A DNA stretch of 64,000 nucleotides from Terrisporobacter petrolearius (GTDB lineage Bacteria; Bacillota; Clostridia; Peptostreptococcales; Peptostreptococcaceae), in NCBI RefSeq assembly GCF_020748185.1, contig NZ_JAHZMO010000001.1, positions 186,001 through 250,000 of the forward strand, written 5' to 3'. A model generated the notes under the pieces. That model was not told the origin of the DNA. It ran no database searches and was given only the letters and a program-made list of their open reading frames with translations. Shown in pieces: positions 6,031 to 23,591 of this stretch (position 1 is its first letter; every line of letters starts with the position of its first letter). Both the position numbers and the translations under genes were made by a program.

Positions 6031-6066
6031 AACCAATGTATTTAAAAAGAATAAGAGGTGGATAAA

Positions 6067-7281: not shown

Positions 7282-7293
7282 ATTGGTGATAAT

Positions 7294-7995: not shown

Positions 7996-8019
7996 AGTAG
8001 TGAACCTACTCTATTTTTT
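7992..8019 (+). terminator. Intrinsic terminator or attenuator between racemase and MurE-like gene
   Basis: ATAGAGTAG (7992-8000) pairs perfectly with CTACTCTAT (8006-8014) around a 5-base loop and is followed by six T residues. It begins at the racemase stop codon and ends 22 bases before the next start codon, so readthrough is needed for that gene unless it has its own promoter. Confidence 0.7.
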
Positions 8020-8041
8020 AAAATCAGAAAGGAAGTATATT

Positions 8042-9556
8042 ATGAAATTATTTAAATTAATGGAAGATGTAAGTTTTACATCCAACTTACCTTTAGAAAA
8101 AATTGATGAGATTGAAATAAAAGATATATCATATAACTCTAGGAGTTGTAAAGAAGAATTTATGTTTGTTGCTCTTGTTGGAGAAACTGTAGATGGTCAT
8201 AGATTTGTAAAAAATGCTTATGACAATGGAGCTAGAGTATTTTTACTACAAAAGGGAATGGAATCTAGTAAATATGCTATGGAACTTCCAAATGATACAG
8301 TAAAATTATTTGTGGAAGATACAAGAATAAGTTTATCAAGAATATCACATAACTTTTTTGGACAACCATCTAACTCACTAAAAGTAATTGGTGTTACAGG
8401 AACTAAGGGAAAAACGACTATAACTAATTATATTGCAACTGTTTTAAATGAATCAGGAGTTAATACTGGTGTAATAGGAACAAATGGAACTTTTTTCAAT
8501 GGAACTTATGAAGCTACAGCAAATACAACGCCAGAAAGCTATGAGTTACATAGAATATTTAGAAAAATGCTTGATAATGGTGTAACTTGTGTATCTATGG
8601 AAGTTTCATCTGGAGGAATAATGCAAAACAGAGTGGAAGATGTAGATTTTGATGTTGCCATATTCTCTAATTTATCTCCAGATCACATAGGACCAAAGGA
8701 ACATCCAACATTTGATCATTATTTACAATGTAAAGCAAGATTATTTAAGATGGCTAAACATGGTATTATTAATATAGATGATGATTATGCAAATGATATA
8801 ATAAATGCAGCAACTTGTGAAGTGGAGACTTTTGGAATAGAAAATGATGCGAATTTAACTGCTAACAATATAAGATATTCAAAAGAAATAGACTCGCTAG
8901 GAGTGAGTTTTGACTGTAATACAAAAGAAGAAACATTCCCATGTTTTATATGTTCTCCAGGAACTTTTAGTATTTACAACGCATTGGCAGTTATAGTAGT
9001 TTGTAAATATCTAGATGTGAAAAGAGAGATTATGGTAGATGCCTTAAAAAATGCTAAGGTAAGTGGAAGAGTGGAAGTTTTACCAATACTTCCTTATGCT
9101 ACAGTAATAGTTGACTATGCTCACAATGGTGTTAGTTTAGAAAATATATTACAAACACTTAAAAACTATGATCATGATAGATTAATATGCTTATTTGGTT
9201 CAGTAGGTGGAAGAACTGCAATAAGAAGAAAAGAATTAGGTGACGTTGCTGCTCGTGAGTGTGATTTAGCAATACTTACAGCAGATAATCCGGATTTTGA
9301 AGATCCGATGAATGTTATAAATGATATAGCACAGTCTTTTGAAGGTTCTTCTTGTGAAGTAGTAAAAATAGCAGATAGAGAAGATGCTATAAAATATACT
9401 ATTAGAAATGCTAAAGAAGGAGATATGATAGTATTTGCAGGGAAAGGTCATGAAAAATACCAATTGATAAATGGAGAAAAATTACCTTTTGATGAAATAG
9501 CTATTGCAAAAGATGAAGCAAAAAAAGTAATAGAAGAAAAAGAATTATTAGCTTAA
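8042..9556 (+). CDS. MurE-like UDP-MurNAc-tripeptide ligase family protein
   Basis: This 504-residue Mur ligase has the N-terminal UDP-binding domain, the ATP P-loop VTGTKGKTT (about 118-126), the central domain (SNLSPDHIGPKEHPTF, carbamylated-lysine region FDHYLQCKARLF) and the C-terminal domain (VDYAHNG, FGSVGGRTAIRRKELG, FAGKGHE). MurE adds the third stem-peptide residue. The specificity motif that is DNPR in meso-diaminopimelate enzymes reads DNPD at 415-418, so a different amino acid is plausible. The start at 8042 has AAGGAAG upstream; an earlier ATG at 8000 lies inside the hairpin. It may be a second, specialised MurE acting with the ligase and racemase before it, or the cell's main MurE. 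Confidence 0.8.
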   Translation: MKLFKLMEDVSFTSNLPLEKIDEIEIKDISYNSRSCKEEFMFVALVGETVDGHRFVKNAYDNGARVFLLQKGMESSKYAMELPNDTVKLFVEDTRISLSRISHNFFGQPSNSLKVIGVTGTKGKTTITNYIATVLNESGVNTGVIGTNGTFFNGTYEATANTTPESYELHRIFRKMLDNGVTCVSMEVSSGGIMQNRVEDVDFDVAIFSNLSPDHIGPKEHPTFDHYLQCKARLFKMAKHGIINIDDDYANDIINAATCEVETFGIENDANLTANNIRYSKEIDSLGVSFDCNTKEETFPCFICSPGTFSIYNALAVIVVCKYLDVKREIMVDALKNAKVSGRVEVLPILPYATVIVDYAHNGVSLENILQTLKNYDHDRLICLFGSVGGRTAIRRKELGDVAARECDLAILTADNPDFEDPMNVINDIAQSFEGSSCEVVKIADREDAIKYTIRNAKEGDMIVFAGKGHEKYQLINGEKLPFDEIAIAKDEAKKVIEEKELLA

Positions 9557-9760: not shown

Positions 9761-10162
9761 TTAGTCATGGCATCTTGATTTATTCAATCCTTGACCAGTT
9801 ACATCAATTATTTTATTTATTGCAGTGTCAGATAAAAATACAATTTCTGATGGTTCGCCTTTCAAATTTTCACCCATCAACTTTAAACCATTAGAGTTTT
9901 CTATGTAAGAAATATCTAGATTTCTCCTGAAAATTCTATTAGTAGTCTTATCTTTAACTTCTACAGTAATTTCATCACAACTAATAAAATCTAAAGGAGC
10001 ATTATTTGGAGCTAAATTTTTGTTGAAGTGTTCTATAAGATAACTTATAGTATAATCCCTCAAAATAATTAATTCCTCATTAGTCTTAGCATTAGATGTA
10101 GAGATAAACCTATCAAATATTTCTTTAAAAACTTCTTCATTTAAAACATTATCTTTAATCAT
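9761..10162 (-). CDS. Hypothetical protein, 133 residues, divergent from the oxidoreductase
   Basis: I do not recognise this protein. The start at 10162 is chosen because GGAGG lies 6 bases before it on the reverse strand; an ATG 21 bases further upstream has no such site. The sequence is soluble and mixed alpha/beta, with no signal peptide, membrane span or metal motif beyond two scattered cysteines. It is transcribed away from the molybdenum hydroxylase gene with about 105 bases between the starts, so it could share or regulate that promoter region, but nothing in the protein looks like a DNA-binding domain. Confidence 0.7.
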   Translation of the reverse strand: MIKDNVLNEEVFKEIFDRFISTSNAKTNEELIILRDYTISYLIEHFNKNLAPNNAPLDFISCDEITVEVKDKTTNRIFRRNLDISYIENSNGLKLMGENLKGEPSEIVFLSDTAINKIIDVTGQGLNKSRCHD

Positions 10163-10267
10163 AGTAACCTCCAAAATAAGCATTAATTTTGCTAATTAAT
10201 AAATTTACATAAATTATAGTCCAAGTTTATTAATTTAGAAATAAAAATTTAAAAGGGGGAAATAAAT

Positions 10268-13012
10268 TTGCTACTAAAAAAGGTCCTTTATATTAATGGG
10301 GTAAAAAGAACACTACTTGTTAATCCAGAAAGCAGTTTAGCTAATGTACTACGTGAACAACTATTACTTACAGGGTGTAAGATAGGTTGTGGTCAAGGTC
10401 ACTGTGGTACATGTACTATTATTTTAAATAATAAGGCTGTTCGTTCTTGTATAGTTAAAATGAAAAAAATTGAGGATGAATCAGTTATACAAACAATTGA
10501 AGGATTATCAGAAGGTGAAGAGTTACATCCACTACAAGTTGCATGGATGGGACACGGATGTGCACAATGTGGTTTCTGTAGCCCTGGATTTATTATGTCA
10601 GCGAAGGTTTTATTAGAAGAAAACCCTTCTCCAACAAGAGAAGAAGTAAGAGAATGGTTCCAAAAACATAAAAATTTATGTCGTTGTACAGGATATAAAC
10701 CTTTAGTAGATGCTGTCATTGATGCAGCTGCAGTACTAAGAGGTGAAAAGAAAGTAGAAGATTTAGTTTTCGAACCTGTAGGAAATGAAATATTAGGAAC
10801 TAAGTATATTAGACCTTCTGCAAAAGCTAAAGTAACTGGTACTTGGGATTTCGGTGCGGATATGAACTTACAAATGCCAGATGGAACTTTAAGATTAGCT
10901 TTAGTTCAAGCTGAGGTTTCTCATGCAAATATTAAGGGAATAGACACTTCTGAAGCAGAAAAAATGCCAGGTGTTTATAAAGTAATAACTGCTAAAGATG
11001 TTAAAGGTAACAATAAGATAAACGGATTAGTATTCTTCCCAAGTGCTAATAAGGGAGATGGATGGGATAGACCAATTCTTTGTGATGAAAAAGTATTCCA
11101 ATATGGTGACGCTATTGCATTAGTAGCTGCTGATACTGAAGAGCAAGCTAAAGCTGCTGCTAAAAAAGTAAAAATAGATTTAGAAGTGCTTCCAGCATAT
11201 ATGAGTGCACCAGAAGCTATGGCTGAAGATGCTATAGAAATACATCCTGGAATTCCTAACGTTTATTTTAAAACTGATTGTAAAAAGGGTGAAGAAACAG
11301 CTCCATTAATGGAAAAACTTCCCAATGTAGTTGAAGTTGAATCTTATTGTAGCCGTCAACCGCATTTACCTCTTGAACCAGACTGTGGTCAAGCGTACCA
11401 AGATGAAGATGGTAACTTAATTATAAACTCTAAGAGTATAGGAATCCACTTACATCATGCAATGATTTGTACAGGTATAGGTATTGATCCAGAAAAATGC
11501 TTCTTAGTACAAAATCCAACTGGAGGAACTTTCGGATATAAATTCTCTCCAACTATGGAATCTATGTTAGGTGTTGCTTGTTTAGCTACTGGAAGACCAG
11601 TAACATTAAACTATACTCAATATCAAAATATAACTTACACTGGAAAGAGGTCTCCTGCATTCATGAAAATAAAACTTGGTGCAGATGAAAATGGTAAAAT
11701 ACTTGCTCTTGAAGGTGAAAACTATATAGATCATGGCCCATATTCAGAATTCGGTGACTTATTAACTATGCGTCTTACTCAATTCGTAGGTGCTGGTTAT
11801 GGAATACCAAATATAAGAAACACTTCTTATACTGTATGTACTAACCATGCTTGGGGTAGTGCATTTAGAGGATATGGTGCTCCACAAAGTTTTATGGGAA
11901 CTGATACTGCTATAGATGTATTAGCAGACCAAATGGGAATGGATCCATTTGAATTAAGATATATAAATGCATATAGAGAAGGAGATACTACTCCAACTGG
12001 TCAAACTCCAGAAGTATACTCTATAGTACCTATGATGGATAAATTAAGACCATTATATGAAGAAGCTAAAGTAAGAGTTAAAGAAAATTCTACTGATAAA
12101 GTTAAACGTGGTGTAGGTATATCTATAGGTGTTTATGGATGTGGACTTGATGGTGCGGATTCATCTGAAGCTTATGCTGAAATAACTCCAAAAGGTGTAA
12201 CTATTTACAACTCTTGGGAAGATCATGGTCAAGGTGCAGATATAGGAACATTAACTATGGCTCATGCAACTTTAAAAGAAGCTGGATATAAACCAGAAGA
12301 TATTAAATTAGTAATGTGTGATATGCGTCAAACTCCAAACAGTGGTCCTGCTGGTGGAAGTAGATCTAATGTTGTTACAGGCAATGCTACTAGAATAGCA
12401 GCTGAAAACTTGTTAAAAGCACTAGATAAAGGCGATGGAACTTATCGTTCTTACGATGAGATGGTAGCTGAAGGTTTACCAACTAAATATGTAGGTAAAT
12501 GGGTTGCGTCTATGTGTTCTGATTGTCAAATAGAAAATGGTCAAGGAGCACCATTTAGTAACTATATGTACGTTGTTAATATGCCAGAAGTTGCTGTTGA
12601 TATGGAAACAGGCAAAACAAAAGTTGAAAAATTCACTTGTATAGTTGACTGTGGTAAGATAATTAACAAACTTGTTGTTGATGGTCAAGTTTATGGAGCA
12701 TTAGCACAAGGTATAGGTCTTGCATTAACTGAAGACTTTGAAGATTTAGAAAAGCATACTACGTTAGTTAAATGTGGTATACCACAAATAAAAGATATAC
12801 CAGATGATTTAGAAATACATTATGAAGAAGCTGAAAGACCAGATGGACCTTATGGGGCTTCTGGAGTAGGTGAAGGTCCATTAGCTGCACCTCACCCTGC
12901 TATACTAAATGCTATATTTAATGCTACTGGAGCTAGAGTAACTAAAGTACCTGCAACTCCAGAAGTAGTTAAAGCTGCACTAGATGAATTAGCAAGTGGA
13001 GCAAATGCTTAA
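10268..13012 (+). CDS. mop: Single-subunit molybdenum aldehyde oxidoreductase (MOP type)
   Basis: The 914-residue xanthine-oxidase-family enzyme joins two [2Fe-2S] domains to the molybdopterin domains and lacks the FAD domain, like Desulfovibrio gigas aldehyde oxidoreductase (907 residues). The plant-type cluster ligands are Cys41, 46, 49 and 61; the second cluster uses Cys100, 103, 137 and 139; the active-site glutamate in GVGEGPLAAPHP is residue 869. From memory the second-cluster and Glu869 numbers are identical to those of MOP. The cofactor loops QNPTGGTFG and AFRGYGAPQS are present. It begins with TTG behind AAAAGGGGG. A hydroxylase acting on another aldehyde, purine or heterocycle is possible, since the accessory operon downstream is unusually large. 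Electrons must leave to a separate acceptor, perhaps the next gene product. Confidence 0.9.
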   Translation: MLLKKVLYINGVKRTLLVNPESSLANVLREQLLLTGCKIGCGQGHCGTCTIILNNKAVRSCIVKMKKIEDESVIQTIEGLSEGEELHPLQVAWMGHGCAQCGFCSPGFIMSAKVLLEENPSPTREEVREWFQKHKNLCRCTGYKPLVDAVIDAAAVLRGEKKVEDLVFEPVGNEILGTKYIRPSAKAKVTGTWDFGADMNLQMPDGTLRLALVQAEVSHANIKGIDTSEAEKMPGVYKVITAKDVKGNNKINGLVFFPSANKGDGWDRPILCDEKVFQYGDAIALVAADTEEQAKAAAKKVKIDLEVLPAYMSAPEAMAEDAIEIHPGIPNVYFKTDCKKGEETAPLMEKLPNVVEVESYCSRQPHLPLEPDCGQAYQDEDGNLIINSKSIGIHLHHAMICTGIGIDPEKCFLVQNPTGGTFGYKFSPTMESMLGVACLATGRPVTLNYTQYQNITYTGKRSPAFMKIKLGADENGKILALEGENYIDHGPYSEFGDLLTMRLTQFVGAGYGIPNIRNTSYTVCTNHAWGSAFRGYGAPQSFMGTDTAIDVLADQMGMDPFELRYINAYREGDTTPTGQTPEVYSIVPMMDKLRPLYEEAKVRVKENSTDKVKRGVGISIGVYGCGLDGADSSEAYAEITPKGVTIYNSWEDHGQGADIGTLTMAHATLKEAGYKPEDIKLVMCDMRQTPNSGPAGGSRSNVVTGNATRIAAENLLKALDKGDGTYRSYDEMVAEGLPTKYVGKWVASMCSDCQIENGQGAPFSNYMYVVNMPEVAVDMETGKTKVEKFTCIVDCGKIINKLVVDGQVYGALAQGIGLALTEDFEDLEKHTTLVKCGIPQIKDIPDDLEIHYEEAERPDGPYGASGVGEGPLAAPHPAILNAIFNATGARVTKVPATPEVVKAALDELASGANA

Positions 13013-13051
13013 ATAAGAAGTAAATATAAAAGAGTAATTTTATGATTGTTG

Positions 13052-13117
13052 CTCTTGTTTAGTCAAATAAAAGGGCTTAACCTTAAGTATATTCTACAAG
13101 AGTTTAAGCCTTTTTTT
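13052..13117 (+). terminator. Terminator-like structure with possible pseudoknot between mop and the accessory operon
   Basis: AAAGGGCTTAA near 13071 can pair with TTTAAGCCTTT (13103-13113, one bulged G), followed by a T run to 13117. A competing pairing, CTCTTGT at 13052-13058 with ACAAGAG at 13096-13102, encloses the left arm of the terminator. The two could form a pseudoknot or act as alternative folds. Confidence 0.6.
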
Positions 13118-13189
13118 CATATAAGGAATCTCAAGGAAGCAAATTTTTTAATACAAATAATAGATATATTTTTTTAAGGAGAATAGACT

Positions 13190-15415
13190 ATGGATAATCT
13201 TAGTCAAGATAAATTAAAAGAGTTAGAAAGCAAATGTATTCAAGAAGAAGATCCTTGGTGTAATGCCATGTGCCCAATTCATATAGATGTAAGACAGCTA
13301 TGTAAACTAGTTGCCCAAGGTAATTTTACTGAAGGTAGAAAAATTTATGAAAAAAAAGTTGTTTTTCCAAACATAATAAGCAGAGTTTGTGAAGCAAAAT
13401 GCAAAAGTCAATGTAAAAGAAAAGAATTAGGAAATTCCATAAATATCAGACAGCTTGAATTAGCTTGCATGAATTATGGGAAAGAAGTAAAGGCCAGGGT
13501 TTTATTAAAACCTAAAAAGAAAGAGAAAGTAATAATATTTGGTACTAGTTTAAGTGGATTAAGCTGTGCAGTAGAATTAAAAAATAAGGGTTATTTTGTT
13601 GATTTACATGAAAGTGAAGAAATTTTAGGAAAAAATATATATGAAAATTATAAAGATGTATTAGAAGAAATTCTTATAAAAAATGATTTACAAAAAGTTG
13701 AAGATTCAGGAACGAAGATTTATATTAATTCCTATTTTGAAAAAGAAAAATTAAATGAATATAAAGAAGAATATGATGCATTAGTATTTGATGGAAACAT
13801 TTATAAAGAATACTTATCTTACAATATGATAACTTTACAGCATGAAAATGATAAAGTTTTTTACAGTCCAATGAATGTTTCAGCTGTGGAGTGTATAAGT
13901 TTAGGTAAAAGGCTTTCAACATCTATAGATAGATATTTACAACATAGTAGCATGACTCAAGGAAGAGAAAAAGAAGGAGTTTTTCAAACAAAATTATATA
14001 CAAATTTAGAAGATGTAGATATTGAATGTGAAACAATTCCTAGTAACAAAAAGTTTTATACAGAGGAGGAAGCTATAAAAGAAGGACAAAGATGTATTGA
14101 CTGTAACTGCCTTGAATGTGTAAAAGGCTGTGAATTTTTAAAACACTATAATTCTTATCCTAAAAAAATGGCAAGAGAAGTTTATAATAACTTATCCATT
14201 GCTTTAGGTAACAGAACTTCAAATAAAATGATAAATTCATGTAGCCTTTGTGGCCAATGTAAAGCTATTTGTCCAGGAGGATTAGATTTAGGAGAAGTTT
14301 GTGAATATGCAAGAAATCAAATGGTAAAAACAAATAAAATGCCTCCATCAGCTTTCGAATTTGCCATGGAAGATATGGAATTTAGCAATAGCGAAGAGTT
14401 TTTTACGGTTATAGAGAAAGATAATCTAAATTATGTGTTTTTTCCTGGGTGCCAATTATGTGCATCTGAACCTGATCTAGTAAAAGTAATTTATAATGAT
14501 TTGAACGATAAATTAAAAAATGAAGTTGGATTAATTCTAGGTTGCTGTGGAGTAATAGGAAAATGGTCTGGAGAGGAAGACAGGTTTTATGAAGAAATAA
14601 AATTAATAAAAAATACATTGGAGAAAGTTAATAATACTATTCTTATTACAGCTTGTCCTACATGTTATAAAATTTTCAGTTCGCATCTAGAAAGTGTAAA
14701 AGTTAAAATGATTTATGATTATATTGATGATAAACAACTAAAATTTATTGGAAATAATAATGATATATATATAGATGATCCATGCACTGTTCGATATGAT
14801 GACAAATTACAAAGTCAAGTAAGAGAAATAGCAAAAAAACTTGGATTTAATCTAATAGAGTTGGATTATAGCAGAGAAATAACTACTTGTTGTGGATATG
14901 GTGGACTTACTTGTTTTTCTAACAAGGAATTAAAGGAAAATATAGTTTTATCAAGAATTAAAGAAAATAAACTAAATTATTTAACTTATTGTATAAATTG
15001 TAGAGATAGTTTTTTAAGCCAAAATAAAGAAGCAAAACATATTTTACAATTTATATATAATTTTGATGGTAAAAACAAAAAACCTAATATTTCTGAAAGA
15101 AGATACAACAGAGTCCAATTAAAATTAGATTTAACACAGGAAAAAGATAAGACCAATAATTACAAAATCAATTTAATTATGAGTGATGATTTGAAAGAAA
15201 AACTAGAGGATAGAATGATTTTATATAAAGATATTGAAGACACAATAAAAAATGCTCAAGAAACTAATGAAAAATTCATAAACAAATCAAACAATCATAA
15301 TTTGGCTTATTATAGAATAAAAAACGTTACATTTTGGGTTGAGTACACTATTGAAGGAGGAAAATATTTAGTTTATAACGCATATAGTCATAGAATGAAG
15401 ATAGAGGTGAATTAA
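13190..15415 (+). CDS. Fe-S/CCG-domain redox protein with reduced nucleotide-binding module (DVU_1558-like)
   Basis: The 741-residue protein is multidomain. Residues 1-105 resemble the cysteine-rich N-terminus of glutamate-synthase small subunits. A Rossmann-like strand follows (IFGTSLSGLSCAVEL, about 115-129). After an unusually short interval comes the usual closing segment ISLGKRLSTSIDRYL. Two [4Fe-4S] motifs follow (CIDCNCLECVKGC near 302; CSLCGQCKAICPGG near 351), then two CCG domains of HdrB/GlpC type (FPGCQLC with GCCGVIGKW, then DPCTVRYDD with TCCGYGG near 566) and an unassigned C-terminal 100 residues. It heads the accessory operon after mop. By inference it takes or delivers electrons for the oxidoreductase or its maturation. 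The nucleotide-binding part looks too short for full FAD and NAD sites. Confidence 0.8.
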   Translation: MDNLSQDKLKELESKCIQEEDPWCNAMCPIHIDVRQLCKLVAQGNFTEGRKIYEKKVVFPNIISRVCEAKCKSQCKRKELGNSINIRQLELACMNYGKEVKARVLLKPKKKEKVIIFGTSLSGLSCAVELKNKGYFVDLHESEEILGKNIYENYKDVLEEILIKNDLQKVEDSGTKIYINSYFEKEKLNEYKEEYDALVFDGNIYKEYLSYNMITLQHENDKVFYSPMNVSAVECISLGKRLSTSIDRYLQHSSMTQGREKEGVFQTKLYTNLEDVDIECETIPSNKKFYTEEEAIKEGQRCIDCNCLECVKGCEFLKHYNSYPKKMAREVYNNLSIALGNRTSNKMINSCSLCGQCKAICPGGLDLGEVCEYARNQMVKTNKMPPSAFEFAMEDMEFSNSEEFFTVIEKDNLNYVFFPGCQLCASEPDLVKVIYNDLNDKLKNEVGLILGCCGVIGKWSGEEDRFYEEIKLIKNTLEKVNNTILITACPTCYKIFSSHLESVKVKMIYDYIDDKQLKFIGNNNDIYIDDPCTVRYDDKLQSQVREIAKKLGFNLIELDYSREITTCCGYGGLTCFSNKELKENIVLSRIKENKLNYLTYCINCRDSFLSQNKEAKHILQFIYNFDGKNKKPNISERRYNRVQLKLDLTQEKDKTNNYKINLIMSDDLKEKLEDRMILYKDIEDTIKNAQETNEKFINKSNNHNLAYYRIKNVTFWVEYTIEGGKYLVYNAYSHRMKIEVN

Positions 15416-15637
15416 ATGAAAGAAAGTTATGATAATTTTTATGATTACTCAAGTGAGTCCATGATTTGTGCCAAATGTAATGTGCCCCTTGAAAGGGGAA
15501 AAGTAACTCTAGAATATTTAGGCAGTAGTTTTCCTGTTGAGCTACCTAAATGCCCTAAATGCAATAATGTATTTATAGACGAAAGTCTAGTATATTCAAA
15601 AATGCTAAGAGTTGAAAAGGCTTTAGAAGATAAATGA
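15416..15637 (+). CDS. CxxC mini-protein, DVU_1557-type redox protein
   Basis: The 73-residue protein has two CxxC pairs, CAKC near residue 19 and CPKC near residue 44, that could form a rubredoxin-like or zinc-ribbon knuckle. It starts immediately after the stop codon of the preceding gene (AGAGGTGAATTAA is the ribosome-binding region), so the two are coupled. Position and size match the small protein named for DVU_1557 in Desulfovibrio. It may carry electrons, a metal or a sulfur/selenium species to the large neighbour, but the sequence alone does not decide this. Confidence 0.75.
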   Translation: MKESYDNFYDYSSESMICAKCNVPLERGKVTLEYLGSSFPVELPKCPKCNNVFIDESLVYSKMLRVEKALEDK

Positions 15638-16266
15638 TAAATAAAAGAGATATATTTAGCCTAGGCGGCCTAAATCTTGTAAATGAAATGATAGAAATGT
15701 ACAAGACAAACGAGGACGTTAAAATATTAGATGTAGGTTGCGGAAGTGGGTATTCTGTAAACTATTTATCTGAGAAGGGATTTGATGCAACAGGAATCGA
15801 TTTCTCTGAAGAAATGATTAATTTAGGTAAGGAAAGATATAAAGACATTAATATAAAAGTAATGGATGCAAATAATCTTGATTTCACAGAAGGTTATTTT
15901 GATTTAATTTTATTTGAATGTAGTTTATCAGTTATGAAAAATCCTGAACAAATATTAGAAAGTTGTAAAAAGCTTTTGAAAAAAAATGGAATAATTTTGC
16001 TAAGTGACTTTTTCTTTAAACAAACAAACCTATATGATGACACATATACTCTTAATTATTGGAATAAATTGTTTGCAGATTTAAATTTTCAAACTATCAT
16101 ATTCCAAGACAAATCCAAAGAATGGAAAAATTATCTTGGAATGGTTCTTTGGGAATATGGAGAGTTGTCAGGATTACTTAGAGGGAATCAAAATAATAAA
16201 ATAAATAATGATATATTAAAAAAAGAAACGGGGTATTTTTTAGTAATACTTAAAAAAAGGGATTGA
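15634..16266 (+). CDS. Class I SAM-dependent methyltransferase (DVU_1556-type)
   Basis: The 210-residue protein has methyltransferase motif I (ILDVGCGSGYSV, about 32-43), the acidic post-I segment (GFDATGIDFS), MDANNLDF and a C-terminal substrate half. It resembles the UbiE/BioC group. It overlaps the preceding gene by 4 bases (ATGA arrangement), a strong sign of coupled translation. Methylation of a cofactor precursor, a small molecule or a protein of this operon is possible; the substrate is unknown. Confidence 0.85.
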   Translation: MINKRDIFSLGGLNLVNEMIEMYKTNEDVKILDVGCGSGYSVNYLSEKGFDATGIDFSEEMINLGKERYKDINIKVMDANNLDFTEGYFDLILFECSLSVMKNPEQILESCKKLLKKNGIILLSDFFFKQTNLYDDTYTLNYWNKLFADLNFQTIIFQDKSKEWKNYLGMVLWEYGELSGLLRGNQNNKINNDILKKETGYFLVILKKRD

Positions 16267-16270
16267 TATT

Positions 16271-16699
16271 ATGGATGAATTATATATGGAAATGCTGGAA
16301 TTATCATCTAAGGGGTATTATTGCAGTCAGATCCTAATGAAGATTATTTTAGACTTAGAAGGAAAAGAAAATCCTGATTTAATTAGGGCCATGGGAGGAT
16401 TAATAGGAGGTCTAGGTTTTAATCAAAAAATATGTGGAGCTTTTACAGGAGGAGTTTGCATATTAGGTTACTTTGCTTCAAAGGGTGAAGATGAAGAAAT
16501 AGAAGATGAAAATCTAAGCATTATGACAAATGAATTAATAGAGTGGTTTGAAAATGAGGGTAGTGACAACAAGGGAATAAACTGTGGGGAAATATTAGAT
16601 GGGAATTTTGATAATAAGTCAAAAATTTGCCCTAACTTAGTATTAAATACATTTGAAAAAGTAGTTGAAATACTTAATAAATATGGTTATGAGTTGTAA
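16271..16699 (+). CDS. C-GCAxxG-C-C family protein (DVU_1555-type)
   Basis: The 142-residue protein belongs to the C_GCAxxG_C_C family, thought to bind a redox cofactor through its conserved cysteines. The motif cysteines are seen in YYCSQIL (near 19), CGAFTGGVC (about 57-65), NCGEIL (near 105) and ICPNLV (near 117). Here the family motif GCAxxG reads ICGAFTGG. It starts 4 bases after the methyltransferase stop. Family members often sit beside redox enzymes and molybdenum or selenium genes. Function is unknown. Confidence 0.8.
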   Translation: MDELYMEMLELSSKGYYCSQILMKIILDLEGKENPDLIRAMGGLIGGLGFNQKICGAFTGGVCILGYFASKGEDEEIEDENLSIMTNELIEWFENEGSDNKGINCGEILDGNFDNKSKICPNLVLNTFEKVVEILNKYGYEL

Positions 16700-16717
16700 T
16701 TAATAAAGGGAGAAGAG

Positions 16718-17758
16718 TTGATGAACATATATGAAGAAGGCTTAAGCCTTTTAAGAGATAAGAAGAATTTTGTTTTAGCTAGTATAGTGAGTAGTACTGG
16801 TTCCACACCTAGGTCAAAAGGGACTCAAATGATAATAAGAGAAGATGGTTCCATATTCTCCACAGTAGGAGGGGGAAAAATGGAAGCATCTTGTATTGAA
16901 AAAGGTGTGAATTCAATTAAAAATAAGGAATCTTTTATTTACGAGTTTAATTTAGATAATAAAGATGCTAACAAATCAGAAATGGTTTGTGGAGGAAATG
17001 GAGAAATTCTTATAAATTATATGGACTGTAACGACAATAATAACTTATTAATTATGGAAAAAGCAGCTGAAGCTATAAAAAATCACAAAAAAGGATGGAT
17101 AGTTACAGTCTTAAGAAAAAATAAAAAAGAAATGCTATTTGTTGATGATAAAAATAATCTTATTGGACAATACTCAGGAAGCGAATTAATGAAAAATAAA
17201 TTAGAAAATGGCATAGAAAGATTAAGTATTCACTCTGATGCTATTGATGATGAAAAAATTGTTGTACAAAAGGTTCATACCATAGGAAAAGCTTATATAT
17301 TTGGAGCTGGTCATGTATCTAAAGAAACAGCAGCAATTTTAGATATAATAGAGTTTGAAACTATAGTTTTAGACGATAGAGATGAATTTGCAAATAAAGA
17401 AAGATTTCCAAACTCTGAGACTATTGTATTAGATAATTTAGAAGAAATAAGTGATTTAGGAATAGATGATGATAGTTATATTTTAATAATTACACGAGGA
17501 CACTTATATGACTATAACGTGCTCAATTGGGCATTAAGAACCGATGCATATTATATAGGAATGATAGGAAGTAAATCTAAGATTAATATGACTTATGAAA
17601 AACTTAAGAAGGATGGTTTTACAGAGGAAGATTTTAAAAGAGTTCATGCTCCAATAGGAATAAAGCTAGATGCAAAAACCCCAGGAGAAATAGCAGTAAG
17701 CATAGCAGGTGAGCTTATAAATGAAAGGGGAGCAAAAGAAAGAAGATTGGAAAAATGA
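16718..17758 (+). CDS. xdhC: XdhC-family molybdenum hydroxylase maturation factor
   Basis: XdhC proteins bind the molybdenum cofactor, protect its sulfurated form and insert it into xanthine-oxidase-family enzymes. The 346-residue protein has the N-terminal XdhC/CoxI domain (VSSTGSTPRSKGTQM near 24, VGGGKMEASC near 50) and the C-terminal Rossmann domain (AYIFGAGHVSKETAAIL near 192, GMIGSKSKI near 284). The start has AAGGGAGAAGAG before it at 16718, with a second in-frame ATG at 16721. It directly links the operon to activation of the mop product. The following gene overlaps it by 4 bases. Confidence 0.92.
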   Translation: MMNIYEEGLSLLRDKKNFVLASIVSSTGSTPRSKGTQMIIREDGSIFSTVGGGKMEASCIEKGVNSIKNKESFIYEFNLDNKDANKSEMVCGGNGEILINYMDCNDNNNLLIMEKAAEAIKNHKKGWIVTVLRKNKKEMLFVDDKNNLIGQYSGSELMKNKLENGIERLSIHSDAIDDEKIVVQKVHTIGKAYIFGAGHVSKETAAILDIIEFETIVLDDRDEFANKERFPNSETIVLDNLEEISDLGIDDDSYILIITRGHLYDYNVLNWALRTDAYYIGMIGSKSKINMTYEKLKKDGFTEEDFKRVHAPIGIKLDAKTPGEIAVSIAGELINERGAKERRLEK

Positions 17759-18900
17759 ATATAAGTGGATTAATTGTTGCTGCAGGTTTATCTTCAAGAA
17801 TGAAAGATTTTAAACCTTTAATGAAAGTAGAAAATAAGCCACTTATTATAAATACAATTAATAGCTTAAAACAAAGCGGCATAGAAGATATAAATATTGT
17901 TGTAGGTTATAAGGGAGAAGATATAGAAAATTGTGTGAAAAATCAAAATGTAAATATAATTTACAACAATAAATATGAAAGTACCTTTATGTATGATTCA
18001 TTTAAACTTGGACTAAATAAAATGAAAAATAGTTGCGATGCTATTATATTTTTACCTGGAGATGTAGGTTTTGTATCGAAATATACAATAGACTTATTGA
18101 TTCAAGAAATAAGTAAAAAAGAAAGTAAAATTGTTTATCCCGTATATAGAAATATCATAGGACATCCACCTATAATAAGTTGGAAATGTTTTGATTATTT
18201 GTTAAGCTACAATGGAAAAAATGGATTAAAAGGTGGACTAGACTATTTTGAAAGAGAATCTAAAGAAGTAGATACTCCAGATAAATTTATATTATGTGAT
18301 ATGGATTATAAAGAAGATTTTTATAAGGTGAAAAAGGATTTTGAAAATAGGCAATATTTATCTTATGAAGATTGTATTTATCTATTATCTTATTTCAATG
18401 TACCAAAGCCTATAGTTAAACATAGTATAAAGGTGAAACAAATATGTGAAGATTTAAGTCGCTTAATCAACAAGGAAAAAGAAATTATCAATATCAATTT
18501 AATTAATTCAGCCGCTATTTTACATGATATAAAAAGAGAAGAAAAAAATCATGAAAAGGTAGGGGCTGAGTTATTACATAATTTAGGATATGAAGAAATT
18601 GCCAGTATTGTAAAGAGCCATATGAGACTTGAAGAAGAAATGGAAAATTTAATAAATGAAAATACTATTTTGTATTATAGTGATAAATTAGTAGTAGAAG
18701 ATGAATTTTCAGATTCAGAAAAAAGATTCAAAATGAAATTAAATAAATATAAAAATGATAAAGAAATTAAAAAAAATATAATTAGAAAATATCAAATAAC
18801 CCTTAAGATAAAATCCAATATTATTTCAATAATTGGTAAAAATGAGTATGAAAAATTGGAGAATAAATGGAGGGGGAACAAGAATGATTTATTTAAATAA
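17755..18900 (+). CDS. MocA-like nucleotidyltransferase fused to an HD domain (DVU_1551-type)
   Basis: The 381-residue protein has two parts. Residues 1-190 form a MobA/MocA nucleotidyltransferase with LIVAAGLSSRMKDFKPLM near 5-22 and the acidic metal site LPGDVGFV near 101. MocA makes molybdopterin cytosine dinucleotide, the cofactor form of MOP. Residues about 215-340 form an HD phosphohydrolase-like domain (His near 223, HDIKREEKNHE near 257, SHMRLEEE). It overlaps xdhC by 4 bases. The fusion suggests that nucleotide addition and a phosphohydrolase step are combined. Whether the nucleotide is CTP cannot be read from the sequence. Confidence 0.87.
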   Translation: MNISGLIVAAGLSSRMKDFKPLMKVENKPLIINTINSLKQSGIEDINIVVGYKGEDIENCVKNQNVNIIYNNKYESTFMYDSFKLGLNKMKNSCDAIIFLPGDVGFVSKYTIDLLIQEISKKESKIVYPVYRNIIGHPPIISWKCFDYLLSYNGKNGLKGGLDYFERESKEVDTPDKFILCDMDYKEDFYKVKKDFENRQYLSYEDCIYLLSYFNVPKPIVKHSIKVKQICEDLSRLINKEKEIININLINSAAILHDIKREEKNHEKVGAELLHNLGYEEIASIVKSHMRLEEEMENLINENTILYYSDKLVVEDEFSDSEKRFKMKLNKYKNDKEIKKNIIRKYQITLKIKSNIISIIGKNEYEKLENKWRGNKNDLFK

Positions 18901-20002
18901 TGGAGCTACATCTTGGCCTAAGCCCAAGTGCGTTTTTGATGCTATGCAAAAGGCATTAAATGAATTGCCGTGTAGCGCCCACAGAAGTGGATTTGATGAA
19001 GAAGACAATTGTAACTGTAGGCAGCTATTAGCAAGATTACTTCAAGTGGACAATCCTAATGATATTGTCTATGGTAGTAATGCTACATTTGGACTTAATT
19101 TAGCCATACAAGGATTTGAGTTTAATGAAGGAGATAAAGTTTTAACTACAGCAGCAGAGCATAATTCAGTACTAAGACCACTGTATTATCTTCAAAAGAA
19201 AAAAGTTATTGAATATGAAATAATTGATGTAAATGAAGAAGGAAGAATAGATTTCCACTTGTGGGAAAAAACAATTAAAGAAATACATCCTAGAATGGTT
19301 ATATTTACACATGCATCCAATGTAACTGGAGCAATTAACGATGCAGAAAAATTAGCTGTTATTGCGAAAAAATATAATTGTGTAGTACTTCTAGATGCTT
19401 CTCAAAGTTTAGGTTTAGTAGATGTATTGCCACAAAAGTGGGATATAGATATGGTAGCGTTTACAGGCCATAAATACTTGCTTGGTCCTCAAGGAACAGG
19501 TGGCCTTTATGTATCACCTAAAATCAAATTAAATCCTGTTTTACAAGGTGGAACGGGAATATATAGCGATGAAAATACAATGCCAGAAGAAATGCCTTTG
19601 AAATTAGAAGCGGGAACACCAAATGATATTTCATTTAAAGGCTTAGAAGAGGCTTTAAGATGGAGTTTTAAAAATCCTTTAAATAAAGATAGTATAGATT
19701 ATTTAGTTAATAAAATAAAAACAGAATTGAAAAAAATTAATGTTAATGTAATAGACGTAAGTGGAGAAATAACTCCAGTAATATCATTTACTATGGAAGA
19801 TTACAGCGTAAACGAAGTAGGAGAAATACTTCAAATGAGCTTTGACATTATATGTAGAAGTGGACTTCATTGTGCACCTTTGATTCACAAATGTTTAAAT
19901 ACATCACCAAGTGGAACTGTTAGAATTAGTTTATCCAGATTTACTACAGAAGAAGAGGTAGATTATTTTATTAGTTCTATAAAGGATATAATAGATGGAT
20001 AA
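18884..20002 (+). CDS. Class V aminotransferase / cysteine desulfurase-like protein (EF2568 type)
   Basis: The 372-residue PLP enzyme resembles SufS-type cysteine desulfurases and selenocysteine lyases. The start is placed at 18884 because GGAGGGGGAA lies 7 bases upstream and the protein then begins MIYLNNGATSWPKP as in its relatives; it overlaps the previous gene by 17 bases. Lys197 in TGHKYLLG is the likely PLP lysine, and Cys330 in SGLHCAP is the position of the persulfide-forming cysteine. The EF2568 subfamily is known from selenium-linked molybdenum hydroxylase clusters. It probably supplies sulfur, or selenium, for the terminal ligand of the Mo site. Confidence 0.87.
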   Translation: MIYLNNGATSWPKPKCVFDAMQKALNELPCSAHRSGFDEEDNCNCRQLLARLLQVDNPNDIVYGSNATFGLNLAIQGFEFNEGDKVLTTAAEHNSVLRPLYYLQKKKVIEYEIIDVNEEGRIDFHLWEKTIKEIHPRMVIFTHASNVTGAINDAEKLAVIAKKYNCVVLLDASQSLGLVDVLPQKWDIDMVAFTGHKYLLGPQGTGGLYVSPKIKLNPVLQGGTGIYSDENTMPEEMPLKLEAGTPNDISFKGLEEALRWSFKNPLNKDSIDYLVNKIKTELKKINVNVIDVSGEITPVISFTMEDYSVNEVGEILQMSFDIICRSGLHCAPLIHKCLNTSPSGTVRISLSRFTTEEEVDYFISSIKDIIDG

Positions 20003-20279
20003 GTTTAAAGTAAAAAAAGTTGATAATTGCTTTAAAAATAGTCAAACGTATGAGTATAAATTAAATGTGGAAATAAACACAGAATTTCTTGAAAAGTTCC
20101 AAGGCTTAGGTAAACTAGAGATAAAAAATTTTAGACGACCAATTTTTATGATTGATTGTGAAAATGAAAATAAAATTAAAGGAGTTATTAATTCTAAGAT
20201 CATAAGAGTGAGTTTTCCAGATTATGTATATGAAGAAAGAAAAGAAGCTTTTGAAAAATTTTTAAATGAACTTTTATAG
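19995..20279 (+). CDS. Unrecognised 94-residue protein of the Mo-hydroxylase accessory operon
   Basis: I do not recognise this small protein. It is hydrophilic, basic at the start (MDKFKVKKVDNCFKN) and appears to alternate strands and helices, with cysteines at about 12 and 55 only. No membrane segment or CxxC motif is present. It overlaps the aminotransferase by 8 bases and precedes the radical SAM gene by 27, so it is translated as part of the operon. A carrier or adaptor for the desulfurase is one possibility, inferred only from position. Confidence 0.75.
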   Translation: MDKFKVKKVDNCFKNSQTYEYKLNVEINTEFLEKFQGLGKLEIKNFRRPIFMIDCENENKIKGVINSKIIRVSFPDYVYEERKEAFEKFLNELL

Positions 20280-20306
20280 TCATAACATATTGCTAGGGGG
20301 TAAACT

Positions 20307-21632
20307 ATGGGAAGAATATTAGGTCAAGTGGAGAGTTTATGTCCTTATTGTTTTAAAAAAATAGTAGGACAAAAAGTAGAATATGAAGATCAAGTATATT
20401 TGGAAAAATCTTGTGAAGAACATGGATTTTTTAAAACACTAATCTGGGAAGGAAAGGATTACGAAACTTGGAGCGATGTGGAAAAATTTAAAAAGCCTAA
20501 TGTAGTAAGTAGTGAAGTAAATAAGGGGTGTCCCTATGATTGTGGCATCTGTAGTGAACATAGACAAGAAACTTGTTGTGTATTACTGGAAATAACAGAT
20601 AGATGTAATTTAAAATGTCCCATTTGCTTTGCTTCATCCAATGAAAATATAAAGGAAGATGTAAGTATAAAAAGAATTAGTGAATACTATGATTATTTAA
20701 TGGCGTGTGGAGGTCCTTATAATATTCAGCTATCAGGAGGAGAACCAACTCTTAGAGATGATTTAGATGAGATAATTAAAATTGGAAGAGAAAAAGGTTT
20801 TACCTTTTTTCAATTAAATACGAATGGTATTAGAATTGGAGAAGATGAAAATTATATAAAAGCTTTGGTCCGTGCAGGATTAAATACAGTATTTTTACAA
20901 TTTGATGGTCTTAGTGATGAAGTATATTATAAACTTAGAGGTAAAAAATTACTTAGAATAAAACTAAAGGCCATAGAAAATTGTAAAAAAGCAGGAGTAG
21001 GAGTAGTTCTTGTTCCTACCATAATGCAAGATGTAAATGTTAATCAAATAGGGAAAATCATTAATTTTGCCATAGATAATATGCCTGCCATAAGGGGAGT
21101 ACATTTTCAACCAGTAAGCTTCTTTGGAAGGTATGAAAATAGAGATGAAAGCTATAGAATAACAATTCCAAAAATGTTAAGAGAAATAAAAAAACAAATG
21201 AAAGGTAAGATGAAAATAGAAAACTTTATGGGTGGTGGAGCAGAAAATTCATACTGTTCCTTTCATGGAAATTTCATAGTAAATGAGGATAAAAGTTTAA
21301 AGCCTTTAGGTAGTAAAAGTAATTGTTGTTGCAAACCAACTTCTTCAAAACAATCTAGAGAGTTTGTGGCAAAACAATGGTCAGCTGTAAAAAATTCCTC
21401 AAATAAAAAAGATGCTAAAAATAATTTTACAAAGTCTTTAGATGATTTTCTAGATAGATTTGATAATTATACTTTGGCCATATCTGCCATGCTATTTCAA
21501 GATGTATGGAATGTGGATTTAGATAGGCTAAAACAATGTTATATACATGTAGTAAGTGAAGATATGAAACTTATACCTTTTTGTGCATACAACTTAACAA
21601 ATATAGATAATAAAAGTTTGTATAGGAGATAA
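20307..21632 (+). CDS. Radical SAM protein (DVU_1554-type, TrsS-like)
   Basis: The 441-residue protein has the radical SAM signature CNLKCPIC at about residues 100-107 with the GGE-like stretch LSGGEPTLR near 146. An N-terminal CPYC pair and a CPYDCGICSEH segment near 76 may bind a further metal. A rare run of three cysteines (SNCCCKP, near 345) and YCSFHGN lie in the C-terminal half. I recall relatives annotated as radical SAM (seleno)proteins; here no in-frame TGA is needed, so it would be the cysteine form. It is preceded by AGGGGG. It probably performs a difficult carbon or chalcogen transfer in the pathway; the substrate is unknown. Confidence 0.85.
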   Translation: MGRILGQVESLCPYCFKKIVGQKVEYEDQVYLEKSCEEHGFFKTLIWEGKDYETWSDVEKFKKPNVVSSEVNKGCPYDCGICSEHRQETCCVLLEITDRCNLKCPICFASSNENIKEDVSIKRISEYYDYLMACGGPYNIQLSGGEPTLRDDLDEIIKIGREKGFTFFQLNTNGIRIGEDENYIKALVRAGLNTVFLQFDGLSDEVYYKLRGKKLLRIKLKAIENCKKAGVGVVLVPTIMQDVNVNQIGKIINFAIDNMPAIRGVHFQPVSFFGRYENRDESYRITIPKMLREIKKQMKGKMKIENFMGGGAENSYCSFHGNFIVNEDKSLKPLGSKSNCCCKPTSSKQSREFVAKQWSAVKNSSNKKDAKNNFTKSLDDFLDRFDNYTLAISAMLFQDVWNVDLDRLKQCYIHVVSEDMKLIPFCAYNLTNIDNKSLYRR

Positions 21633-21635
21633 TGT

Positions 21636-22955
21636 ATGAGATTAGATAATTGGATATGTGAAAAAATTAAAATAAAGAACAAATTAAGTAGAGAAGAACT
21701 AGAAAAATACCAATTAAATGCATTAAATAATTTAATTAAATATGTAAAAGAAAACTCACCTTTTTATAAAGAATTATATAAAAATTTAGATGAAATAAAT
21801 TCTTTAGATGAGTTATACAAAATACCAATTATTAATAAAGATGATATTATTGAAAATGGAAATAAAATGGTTTGTGTTAATCAAAGTGAGATAAGTCGAA
21901 TAGTTTCACTAGATACATCTGGAACAGTGGGTAAATGTAAAAGAATTTATTTCACTGAAGAAGATCAAAAACTTACAATTGATTTTTTTATGCAAGGACT
22001 TAGTTTTCTTGTTAAAAATGATGATGTAATGATGATTATGCTTCCTTTTGAAAGAGAAAATAGTGTGGGGGATCTAATAAAACAATCTTTAGAAATTATG
22101 AAGGTTAAACCTGTTATGAATGGGACTTTATCTTCTTTTAAGAAAACTACAGATATTATAATAAGTAATAAAGTAAACTCTATTGTAGGTATGCCAACTG
22201 AAATTTTAGCTTTAGGAAGATATATAAAAAAAGAAAATTTACCTATAAAAATTAAGAGTATTTTATTAAGTGCGGATATGGTAAATAAAACATTGATTGA
22301 AAAAATAAAGAATATATATAATTGTGAAGTCTTTAATCATTTTGGAATGACAGAAACTGGCCTTGGATGTGCAGTCGACTGTAATTATCATGAGGGAATG
22401 CATATTAGAGAAAATGATTTGATAGTAGAAATTGTAAATCCTGTCACAAAAGAAAAAGTAAAAGACGGAGTAAGCGGGGAAATATTAATTACTACTTTAA
22501 CGAGAAAAGCAATGCCACTTATAAGGTATGCAACTGGAGATATATCTTCTTTCGCAGTAGGGAGCTGTAACTGTTCTAGTGTTTTAAAAAGGCTAGAACA
22601 ATTAAGATATAGAATGGATGATAGGGCGCATATAGGTAGAAATTTGTATATAAATATTAATTCCATAGATAGTAAGTTATTTAATTTGAATAACCTTATA
22701 AATTATAAAGTAGGTGTGGAAAATATTCATAATTATTATGAACTAAAATTACAACTTGTTTTATTTCAAGAGGAAAAAATAATTTTATCTAATGACAATG
22801 AAAAATTGAAAATAAAGATTAAAAATTTGTTGTTAAAAAATCCAAGGATTAAGAAGTCCTATGAAATGGGAATCTTAAAAATGCATATAAATCTAATGTA
22901 CACAGATGAATATATTAATTTATATAGAGGAAAGAGAAAAATTAACTCTATTTAA
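21636..22955 (+). CDS. AMP-forming acyl-CoA ligase-like enzyme (DVU_1553-type)
   Basis: The 439-residue protein resembles phenylacetate-CoA ligase-type adenylating enzymes. The ATP loop reads TSGTVGKCKRIYF near 92, the aromatic motif HFGMTETG near 233 and the YATGD motif near 298. Family members activate a carboxylate as acyl-AMP, usually followed by thioester formation. It starts 3 bases after the radical SAM gene. Its presence means the pathway probably handles an organic acid, which a simple cofactor-sulfuration route would not need. The acid and its acceptor are unknown. Confidence 0.85.
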   Translation: MRLDNWICEKIKIKNKLSREELEKYQLNALNNLIKYVKENSPFYKELYKNLDEINSLDELYKIPIINKDDIIENGNKMVCVNQSEISRIVSLDTSGTVGKCKRIYFTEEDQKLTIDFFMQGLSFLVKNDDVMMIMLPFERENSVGDLIKQSLEIMKVKPVMNGTLSSFKKTTDIIISNKVNSIVGMPTEILALGRYIKKENLPIKIKSILLSADMVNKTLIEKIKNIYNCEVFNHFGMTETGLGCAVDCNYHEGMHIRENDLIVEIVNPVTKEKVKDGVSGEILITTLTRKAMPLIRYATGDISSFAVGSCNCSSVLKRLEQLRYRMDDRAHIGRNLYININSIDSKLFNLNNLINYKVGVENIHNYYELKLQLVLFQEEKIILSNDNEKLKIKIKNLLLKNPRIKKSYEMGILKMHINLMYTDEYINLYRGKRKINSI

Positions 22956-22967
22956 AAAGGATGAATT

Positions 22968-23546
22968 ATGAACATTTATTTAGTAAGGCATGGAGAGCTA
23001 TACTGGGAAGATAATATAAAAAAATGTATAGGAATTACAGATATTAATTTAAATGAAAAAGGTATTGAAAGAGCTGAATTAGTAGGTTTATATTTAAAGG
23101 ATAAAAATATTAGCAAAATATATACGAGTAGTTTAAACAGATGTAAAAAATCTGCAGAGATTATATCGTCTATTCTAAATGTACCTTATCATGTAGATAA
23201 TCAACTAGTAGAAATAAATATGGGTATATGGGAAAATAAATCCTTTGATTACATTAAAGTGAAATATCAAAAACAGTATGAAAATAGAGGGAAAAACCTA
23301 TCAACTTTTAGAATTAAAGATGGGGAAACATTTGAAGAATGTTATGAAAGATCAAATAGTGTATTTAGGAAATTATGTGAAGAAAATTATAATAATAGTA
23401 TTGCTATATTATGCCACAGTGGTGTTATAAAATCTATAATCTGTTCTATTGAAAAGATACCTTTAGATGAAATATTAAGTATTAAATTAGAATATGGACA
23501 TATTATACATATTAATTACAATAAAAAACAGTATAAAATAGTATAA
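22968..23546 (+). CDS. Histidine phosphatase family protein (DVU_1552-type, CobC-like)
   Basis: The 192-residue protein has the phosphoglycerate-mutase/phosphatase signature YLVRHGE with catalytic His8, an arginine in SSLNRCKKSAEII near 61, and the second histidine in AILCHSG near 149. It resembles alpha-ribazole phosphatase CobC. It starts 12 bases after the ligase behind AAAAGGATG and is the last gene of the operon, followed by a strong terminator. It probably removes a phosphate from a pathway intermediate. Confidence 0.85.
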   Translation: MNIYLVRHGELYWEDNIKKCIGITDINLNEKGIERAELVGLYLKDKNISKIYTSSLNRCKKSAEIISSILNVPYHVDNQLVEINMGIWENKSFDYIKVKYQKQYENRGKNLSTFRIKDGETFEECYERSNSVFRKLCEENYNNSIAILCHSGVIKSIICSIEKIPLDEILSIKLEYGHIIHINYNKKQYKIV

Positions 23547-23550
23547 AAAG

Positions 23551-23591
23551 CCATGAAATATAGATAAAAAATCTATATTTCATGGTTTTTT
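23551..23591 (+). terminator. Terminator of the accessory operon
   Basis: A perfect 15-bp stem (CCATGAAATATAGAT at 23551-23565 with its complement at 23571-23585) has a 5-base loop and a run of six T residues. Confidence 0.85.

Follow-up and report, generated by a model that had tools for sequence, protein, structure and literature searches.

In a window of 64,000 nucleotides from Terrisporobacter petrolearius (contig NZ_JAHZMO010000001.1, positions 186,001 to 250,000; the window is the whole of this stretch), the gene for a molybdopterin-dependent aldehyde oxidoreductase (AOR) is directly followed by a cassette of eleven genes, and the link between enzyme and cassette recurs in different genera of one bacterial phylum. 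Two cassette members, the radical S-adenosylmethionine (SAM) protein TrsS and a small CxxC protein termed MINI, appear to track one clade of AOR and not molybdenum hydroxylases in general, an association strongly supported by their distribution across genomes. The locus may represent a self-contained aldehyde-oxidation unit of this AOR clade, equipped with an electron-transfer partner formed by MINI and a dicluster protein (DIC) and with a module built around TrsS; we judge the chances of this proposal to be about even.

In the proposed mechanism, AOR would oxidize aldehydes at a molybdenum centre carrying molybdopterin cytosine dinucleotide (MCD). Electrons would leave by its two [2Fe-2S] clusters for DIC with MINI, and the pair would stand in for the flavin adenine dinucleotide (FAD) domain missing from AOR and pass the electrons onward. 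An XdhC-family protein and a MocA-like nucleoside triphosphate (NTP) transferase, here joined by a cysteine desulfurase-like enzyme, would make and load the cofactor, as their families suggest. TrsS, a SAM-dependent methyltransferase (MT), a C-GCAxxG-C-C protein (CGA) and usually an AMP-forming ligase (LIG) could act as a Tes-type module whose task is to make or insert a small organic group required by AOR, DIC and MINI; the likeliest target of this module would be the DIC/MINI partner and not the pterin.

The cassette and its recurrence with one AOR clade

AOR (914 amino acids; positions 10268 to 13012, plus strand) matches the NCBIfam model NF045668 at 1601 bits (cut-off 1100) over residues 4-905. 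It is a single chain with two [2Fe-2S] domains and the molybdenum domains, and a Pfam domain search found no FAD domain in it. The AORs of Desulfovibrio gigas (1sij, 1vlb) and Desulfovibrio desulfuricans (1dgj) have the same one-chain architecture lacking FAD, and identity to 1dgj is 61% over 905 positions. Eleven co-directional open reading frames (13190 to 23546, plus strand) lie directly 3′ of AOR. They encode, in order, DIC, MINI, MT, CGA, the XdhC-family protein, the NTP transferase fused to an HD domain (NTP_HD), the desulfurase-like enzyme, a 94-amino-acid protein, TrsS, LIG and a histidine phosphatase (HPHOS). AOR and DIC are 177 bases apart; from DIC onward, adjacent genes overlap or are at most 27 bases apart. 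The row is closed by a strong intrinsic terminator detected by consensus scan and folding (23545 to 23591, plus strand), a 20-pair stem with a T-rich tail (-26.1 kcal/mol, z = -9.8). A first-pass annotation, made from the letters alone, had described eleven packed genes that follow a one-chain AOR and end at one strong terminator, and the coordinates, family matches and folding energy bear this out. Curated NCBIfam cut-offs are passed by nine of the twelve proteins: AOR, DIC, MINI, MT, CGA, XdhC, NTP_HD, TrsS and LIG.

Recurrence was examined in 398 genomes of one phylum. These include a set of 169 that was also profiled, so that the two samples are not independent, and the assemblies often consist of many contigs. 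The thresholds used for the 398 genomes (at least 455 bits for TrsS, at least 950 bits for AOR) admit two partial AORs below the family cut-off, in G073 and G076. The AOR search listed matches at E ≤ 1e-200 only, a limit that shorter fragments would escape, and the genome-wide searches cover neither the XdhC nor the methyltransferase families. Contig ends truncate several loci (G072, G076, G083, G073 and G207). TrsS was found in 26 genomes, and AOR above its cut-off also in 26, or in 28 when the partial copies of G073 and G076 are included. The two occur together in 25 genomes, AOR alone in three and TrsS alone in one (Fisher p = 3e-35, relatedness being ignored). The first-pass annotation held that genomes with one part and not the other would break the link between enzyme and cassette; beside the 25 genomes with both, profiling found four exceptions. 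AOR lacks TrsS in G083, where a contig end cuts AOR, in G073, where AOR is partial, and in G207, which has DIC and MINI; TrsS lacks AOR in G356, an 87% complete genome. MINI is present in G207 and was not found in G083, G073 or G356.

Among the 169 genomes, some AOR-related molybdenum hydroxylase is present in 82 (E ≤ 1e-60), and just 13 have the AOR family above its cut-off. MINI also occurs in 13, identical to the 13 with TrsS at 469 bits or more; the AOR set differs from the TrsS/MINI set in lacking G076, whose partial AOR lies at a contig end, and in containing G083. Twelve genomes, all within the MINI set, have LIG at 275 bits or more, and the next match is at 231 bits. CGA passes the NF045669 cut-off in eight, again all within the MINI set, and G076 falls just under it. 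DIC passes in 15: 12 in the MINI set plus G150, G037 and G047, where the cut-off is reached only by summing neighbouring pieces. NTP_HD passes in seven, six of them in the MINI set; it was rejected as an AOR-specific family because the seventh, G061, has neither this AOR nor TrsS.

AOR and TrsS share one fragment at 24 loci of other genomes (the window is excluded, and several loci are cut by contig ends). MINI is present at all 24, DIC and CGA at 23 each, MT at 21, LIG at 20, NTP_HD at 15, HPHOS at 14, XdhC at 13 and a desulfurase at one; these counts come from home-made profiles with thresholds set in this analysis, and the loose CGA profile counts generic C-GCAxxG relatives. At one locus, L116, the MT, HPHOS and desulfurase that were counted belong to an adjacent AOR relative, and this desulfurase is the only one in the 24 loci. 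The DIC, MINI, MT, TrsS and LIG genes lie on the same strand as AOR in 113 of 114 cases. The grouping exceeds chance, since AOR, MINI and TrsS recur with varying other members at 24 loci elsewhere, and the same counts mark the desulfurase and the 94-amino-acid gene of the window as local additions.

In the AOR tree, a branch with 100/100 support divides the AOR family from eight relatives (the sister group), and the family splits into two clades. TrsS is present in all 17 genomes of the first clade (AOR at 1459 bits or more), with which 1dgj falls (57-67% identity, versus 43-48% to the second clade). Both AORs of G207 fall in the second clade, as does a second AOR copy in each of G377 and G293; the partial genes of G083, G073 and G076 were left out of this placement. 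At the loci of the eight relatives, TrsS was seen only in G283, which has the two AOR types on a single contig. The first-pass annotation had tied the cassette to a MOP-type enzyme. The 25 shared genomes among the 398 and the 100/100 branch give this tie strong support and narrow it to one AOR clade. A second hydroxylase of the same genome (G000:C177) is a within-cell control for AOR specificity: its neighbours are YqeC, MocA, YqeB and an XdhC-like protein, and none of the extra cassette families stands alongside. This contrast supports the first-pass proposal that the cassette goes beyond ordinary cofactor insertion.

The sister-group loci have features of their own. A desulfurase adjoins the AOR relative at three of the eight (L084, L086 and L116), and a DsrC-like gene lies between the two at L086 (by Pfam) and at L084 (by eye). 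At L086, the AOR relative and desulfurase are followed by LIG, MT, a CGA-like open reading frame and HPHOS.

DIC and MINI as a candidate electron-transfer partner

DIC (741 amino acids; 13190 to 15415, plus strand; NF045663 at 855 bits, cut-off 530) is composed of an N-terminal part that resembles NfnA and GltD, a 4Fe-4S dicluster, a CCG domain detected by Pfam, a second CCG domain read from the alignment and a C-terminal domain, DICc. An assignment of DICc to a known domain was dropped, nothing but sub-threshold Pfam matches having been obtained. MINI (73 amino acids; 15416 to 15637, plus strand; DVU_1557 family, NF045645 at 99 bits, cut-off 60) has four cysteines in two CxxC pairs, invariant in 15 aligned sequences, and ends in LEDK. 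Sequence searches of the PDB with MINI and with CGA returned nothing below E 0.2.

DIC and MINI are fused in three genomes (G377, G293 and G207). The C-terminus of MINI is E-[D/E]-K in 29 of 29 copies, fused ones included (E-D-K in 28, E-E-K in one); this census took copies above 55 bits, dropped repeats of the same place and left out the second MINI of G207. G076, which is without the DIC body, retains the DIC C-terminal domain beside MINI. In G315, AOR-DIC lies on one contig and MINI-TrsS on another, which links MINI to both sides of the cassette; an apparent MINI fusion in this genome was judged to be an over-extended reading frame.

DIC and MINI are, on genetic grounds, the best candidates for the flavin partner that AOR lacks. 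The first-pass annotation had placed all the extra genes in a biosynthetic pathway. For TrsS, MT, LIG and CGA this view can be kept in the form of a module, and DIC and MINI are probably better seen as an electron-transfer partner than as pathway members. D. gigas AOR also has no flavin domain; its partner is given as flavodoxin, from in vitro work and docking, and is termed putative, with accessory genes unmentioned (PMC10223205, cited throughout from the parts of it available). As a genetic candidate for the AOR partner, the DIC-MINI pair would outrank flavodoxin, and it is open to direct test. Given its invariance, the MINI tail may be a site of docking or of attachment. By analogy with lipoate, MINI might even be a carrier whose invariant C-terminal lysine bears a novel organic prosthetic group, synthesized by TrsS and the methyltransferase and joined to the lysine by the AMP-forming ligase, as a redox arm between AOR and DIC; this extension is speculative and we think it very unlikely.

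The TrsS module and alternative explanations

TrsS (441 amino acids; 20307 to 21632, plus strand; NF045646 at 652 bits, cut-off 490) belongs to the Tes superfamily. It matches Tes (7tol) at 295 bits in two stretches, and it shares with Tes the radical SAM core, the N-terminal cysteine motifs and a C-terminal PFCxYN; the cysteine motifs are conserved in an alignment of the window protein with 13 relatives. TrsS differs from Tes in scoring under the Tes cut-off (NF045702, 360 versus 450 bits), in forming a clade of its own in the radical SAM tree and in its gene context. A plasmid search with TrsS returned 10 records that hold relatives, the closest at ~30% identity, and the gene neighbourhood was read in four of them; a scan of a contig collection gave two distant relatives and nothing else.

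The three enzymes or proteins associated with TrsS are MT (210 amino acids; 15634 to 16266, plus strand; DVU_1556 family, NF045667 at 163 bits, cut-off 155), CGA (142 amino acids; 16271 to 16699, plus strand; DVU_1555 family, NF045669 at 169.5 bits, cut-off 103) and LIG (439 amino acids; 21636 to 22955, plus strand; DVU_1553 family, NF045666 at 426 bits, cut-off 300). LIG is a PaaK-like AMP-forming ligase that also matches 4r1l, and its adenylation motifs and C-terminal KR are kept in the alignment. TrsS, MT, LIG and CGA probably constitute a module for biosynthesis or maturation. That a Tes-type radical SAM protein is tied to one clade of molybdoenzymes suggests a modification or a small molecule, and no description of either was found in the literature searched.

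The first-pass annotation had also considered a selenium-containing product, for which this analysis gives no support. The TrsS frame of the window has no internal stop, hence no selenocysteine position such as is present in some NF045646 members, and an in-frame TGA flagged at the C-terminal end of TrsS in G283 is most likely the stop codon. The set of genes known for selenium-dependent molybdenum hydroxylases is similar in being a special accessory set beside a molybdenum hydroxylase, with XdhC- and MocA-like proteins in both. It differs in YqeB and YqeC, which have no match among the twelve proteins; both adjoin the other hydroxylase, C177.

Other gene neighbours were observed around TrsS and its relatives. 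In G096, TrsS is followed by a DUF5714 protein (L075, 15019 to 15753) with faint similarity to the C-GCAxxG family (E 0.009). A protein encoded close to TrsS in G356 (L117, 5678 to 6256) gives a partial match to the MbdU selenoprotein model, with which it also has a sequence motif in common. G186 has a tandem pair of Tes-like radical SAM genes in what appears, by eye, to be a fatty-acid-synthesis cluster (L124).

Several findings weigh against a self-contained unit of AOR, DIC-MINI and TrsS module. G207, 96% complete, keeps AOR, DIC and MINI, and TrsS was not found in it; the module may therefore be dispensable, or may lie in an assembly gap. The unvarying tail of MINI is not tied to TrsS, as it is kept in this same genome, and docking is therefore favoured as its role. 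G076 has TrsS, MINI, CGA and MT without the DIC body and the ligase. In G096, one contig carries AOR, DIC, MINI and TrsS, and another carries a sister-group AOR with a desulfurase, adjoined by MT, HPHOS, a LIG that passes its cut-off and a short CGA-like open reading frame; in G283, a sister-group AOR is adjoined by MT and HPHOS. Part of the TrsS module is thus not confined to this AOR, and the strict confinement of the extra families has to be given up for the ligase, methyltransferase and C-GCAxxG genes of G096. It appears that TrsS and MINI follow AOR closely and that the ligase and methyltransferase can move to a relative of AOR. A Tes-like radical SAM gene followed by a DVU_1556-like MT, with no AOR in the stretch read, was seen on two haloarchaeal plasmids, on a Mycolicibacterium plasmid and in G300, so that this pairing exists outside AOR use; the MT genes are at L145 8436-9143, L147 7482-8189, L146 8536-9324 and L122 8403-9188, and their products are below the family cut-off wherever this was run. 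With respect to DIC, the FAD-type glycine motif of the window protein is degenerate (GTSLSG), and D. gigas AOR gives electrons to flavodoxin in vitro (PMC10223205).

One alternative, unlikely but to be taken seriously, is that TrsS, MT and other enzymes modify the molybdenum cofactor itself, at the pterin, dithiolene or nucleotide, to give a variant MCD that purification may remove. Four TrsS-like proteins, which form a separate clade, are encoded directly beside a 726-727-amino-acid protein of the dimethyl sulfoxide (DMSO) reductase family in 4/4 genomes (G042, G083, G124 and G346; L074, L079, L082 and L125). The DMSO-reductase family match was run for two of these four and stays below the cut-offs in both, and the other two were recognized by eye from a near-identical start. 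The tree does not resolve the branching order of this clade relative to TrsS and Tes. Among the NCBIfam models shown, no cut-off is reached by the radical SAM proteins of L074, L079 and L082 or by the 727-amino-acid proteins of L079 and L082. An N-terminal domain matched by Pfam, PF23545, is named after HMPTM, a reported hydroxymethylpterin methylase, and this also agrees with cofactor modification. Inactive samples of D. gigas AOR exist as well, their activation being unlike that of xanthine oxidase (PMC10223205). However, the 1.28 Å structure of D. gigas AOR contains MCD with well-defined pterin rings (PMC10223205). Because this AOR shows ordinary MCD, and because its active form requires no sulfido ligand (PMC10223205), a pterin change that persists in the enzyme is disfavoured, and with it the modified cofactor suggested at first pass; the other first-pass suggestion, a prosthetic group of the redox partner, may still apply. 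The AOR of D. desulfuricans groups with the first clade, in which TrsS is present in 17/17 genomes, both Desulfovibrio species being known here from AOR alone. Moreover, the radical SAM and MT pairs on the three plasmids have no annotated molybdenum enzyme in the stretch. At L079, the pair of TrsS-like and DMSO-reductase-family genes is followed by a CofC-like gene (TIGR04282, below cut-off), and a similar gene was recognized by eye in L074 and L125.

The locus might instead be a metabolic pathway, in which the TrsS module makes an aldehyde, AOR oxidizes it and the ligase activates the resulting acid. AOR yields a carboxylic acid, and LIG, a PaaK-like acid ligase, keeps its motifs intact, is present at 20 of the 24 loci and stands beside the sister-group AOR in G096. 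The XdhC and MocA genes and MINI, however, suit maturation and electron transfer better than catabolism, and a search of G076 for a LIG of the DVU_1553 family found none. The activity of Desulfovibrio AOR on many simple aldehydes also speaks against a pathway, which we consider quite improbable. A last alternative makes TrsS a bacterial synthase of tetraether or other membrane-spanning lipids that merely neighbours AOR. The 7tol match at 295 bits, with the cysteine motifs of both aligned stretches kept, PFCxYN included, would agree with this, and bacterial Tes homologues have been proposed as makers of such lipids (PMC8941075, in the part available). But TrsS is below the Tes cut-off (360 versus 450) in its own clade, and relatives with Lgt-like or fatty-acid neighbours sit in another group of the tree. 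Membrane lipids are an extremely unlikely product because 25 of the 26 genomes with TrsS carry this AOR; for the same reason, similarity to Tes should not by itself be read as evidence for membrane-spanning lipids.

Related loci and remaining genes

The nine window proteins above NCBIfam cut-offs match NF045645, NF045646 and NF045663-NF045669, and five of these families carry DVU_1551, 1553, 1555, 1556 and 1557 in their names. The order AOR, MINI, MT, CGA fits the DVU numbers of Desulfovibrio vulgaris. The window differs in the inserted desulfurase-like and 94-amino-acid genes, and in having NTP_HD (DVU_1551) before LIG (DVU_1553), not after it. DVU_1559 is listed as aldehyde oxidoreductase in a table of PMC10920352, a source available in part. 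The five family names and this listing support in part the first-pass statement that the same set makes up DVU_1551-1559, the D. vulgaris locus itself being known here by names only.

The cassette families were already catalogued before this analysis, and the existence of the NCBIfam set means that the neighbourhood had been noticed. Haft and Tolstoy (2025) may already describe it, and no priority is claimed. A full-text literature search for the locus names DVU1551-DVU1560 returned 1558 or 1559 only; for TrsS itself, the literature search led to a table entry of one review, available in part. The DIC-MINI fusions, the invariant MINI tail, the clade profile and the pairs of TrsS-like and DMSO-reductase-family proteins come from the present analysis.

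The remaining cassette genes are all on the plus strand. The XdhC-family AOR maturation factor (XdhC_rel_AOR; 346 amino acids, 16718 to 17758) matches NF045664 at 396 bits (cut-off 350). NTP_HD (DVU_1551 family; 381 amino acids, 17755 to 18900) joins PF12804 to PF01966 and matches NF045665 at 376 bits (cut-off 315). The desulfurase-like enzyme, a pyridoxal phosphate protein (PF00266; 18884 to 20002), has a likelier start in the ATG at 18884 than in the one at 18833; it is below the cut-offs of TIGR01977 (EF2568 family; 348 versus 377 bits) and of the selenocysteine lyase SclA model NF040779 (254 versus 525). HPHOS (192 amino acids, 22968 to 23546; PF00300) is CobC-like and is below the cut-off for alpha-ribazole phosphatase CobC, TIGR03162 (151.1 versus 162.9 bits). 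Both enzymes thus have clear Pfam domains and reach no NCBIfam cut-off among those shown. The 94-amino-acid protein (19995 to 20279) has no Pfam or NCBIfam match. Single-sequence structure models of it and of MINI have a mean pLDDT (predicted local distance difference test) of 51 and 64, respectively.

Between AOR and DIC lies an imperfect, U-tailed hairpin (within 13050 to 13130, plus strand; -17.5 kcal/mol, z = -2.1), a possible attenuator or terminator. It is absent from the list of the terminator consensus scan, and 8 of 200 shuffled sequences fold equally well. Because of this weaker hairpin, AOR may be partly terminated separately from the cassette. Rfam gave no match at gathering scores within the window.

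Upstream, an open reading frame of 140 amino acids with no Pfam match (9761 to 10183, minus strand) lies between a MurE-type gene and AOR. Positions 6058 to 9556 hold, in a row, an open reading frame that has no Pfam family and matches NCBIfam models of ATP-grasp type weakly, a racemase that passes the cut-off for CuyB (cysteate racemase) and the MurE-type ligase; this row is possibly a cluster for peptide or amino-acid ligation.

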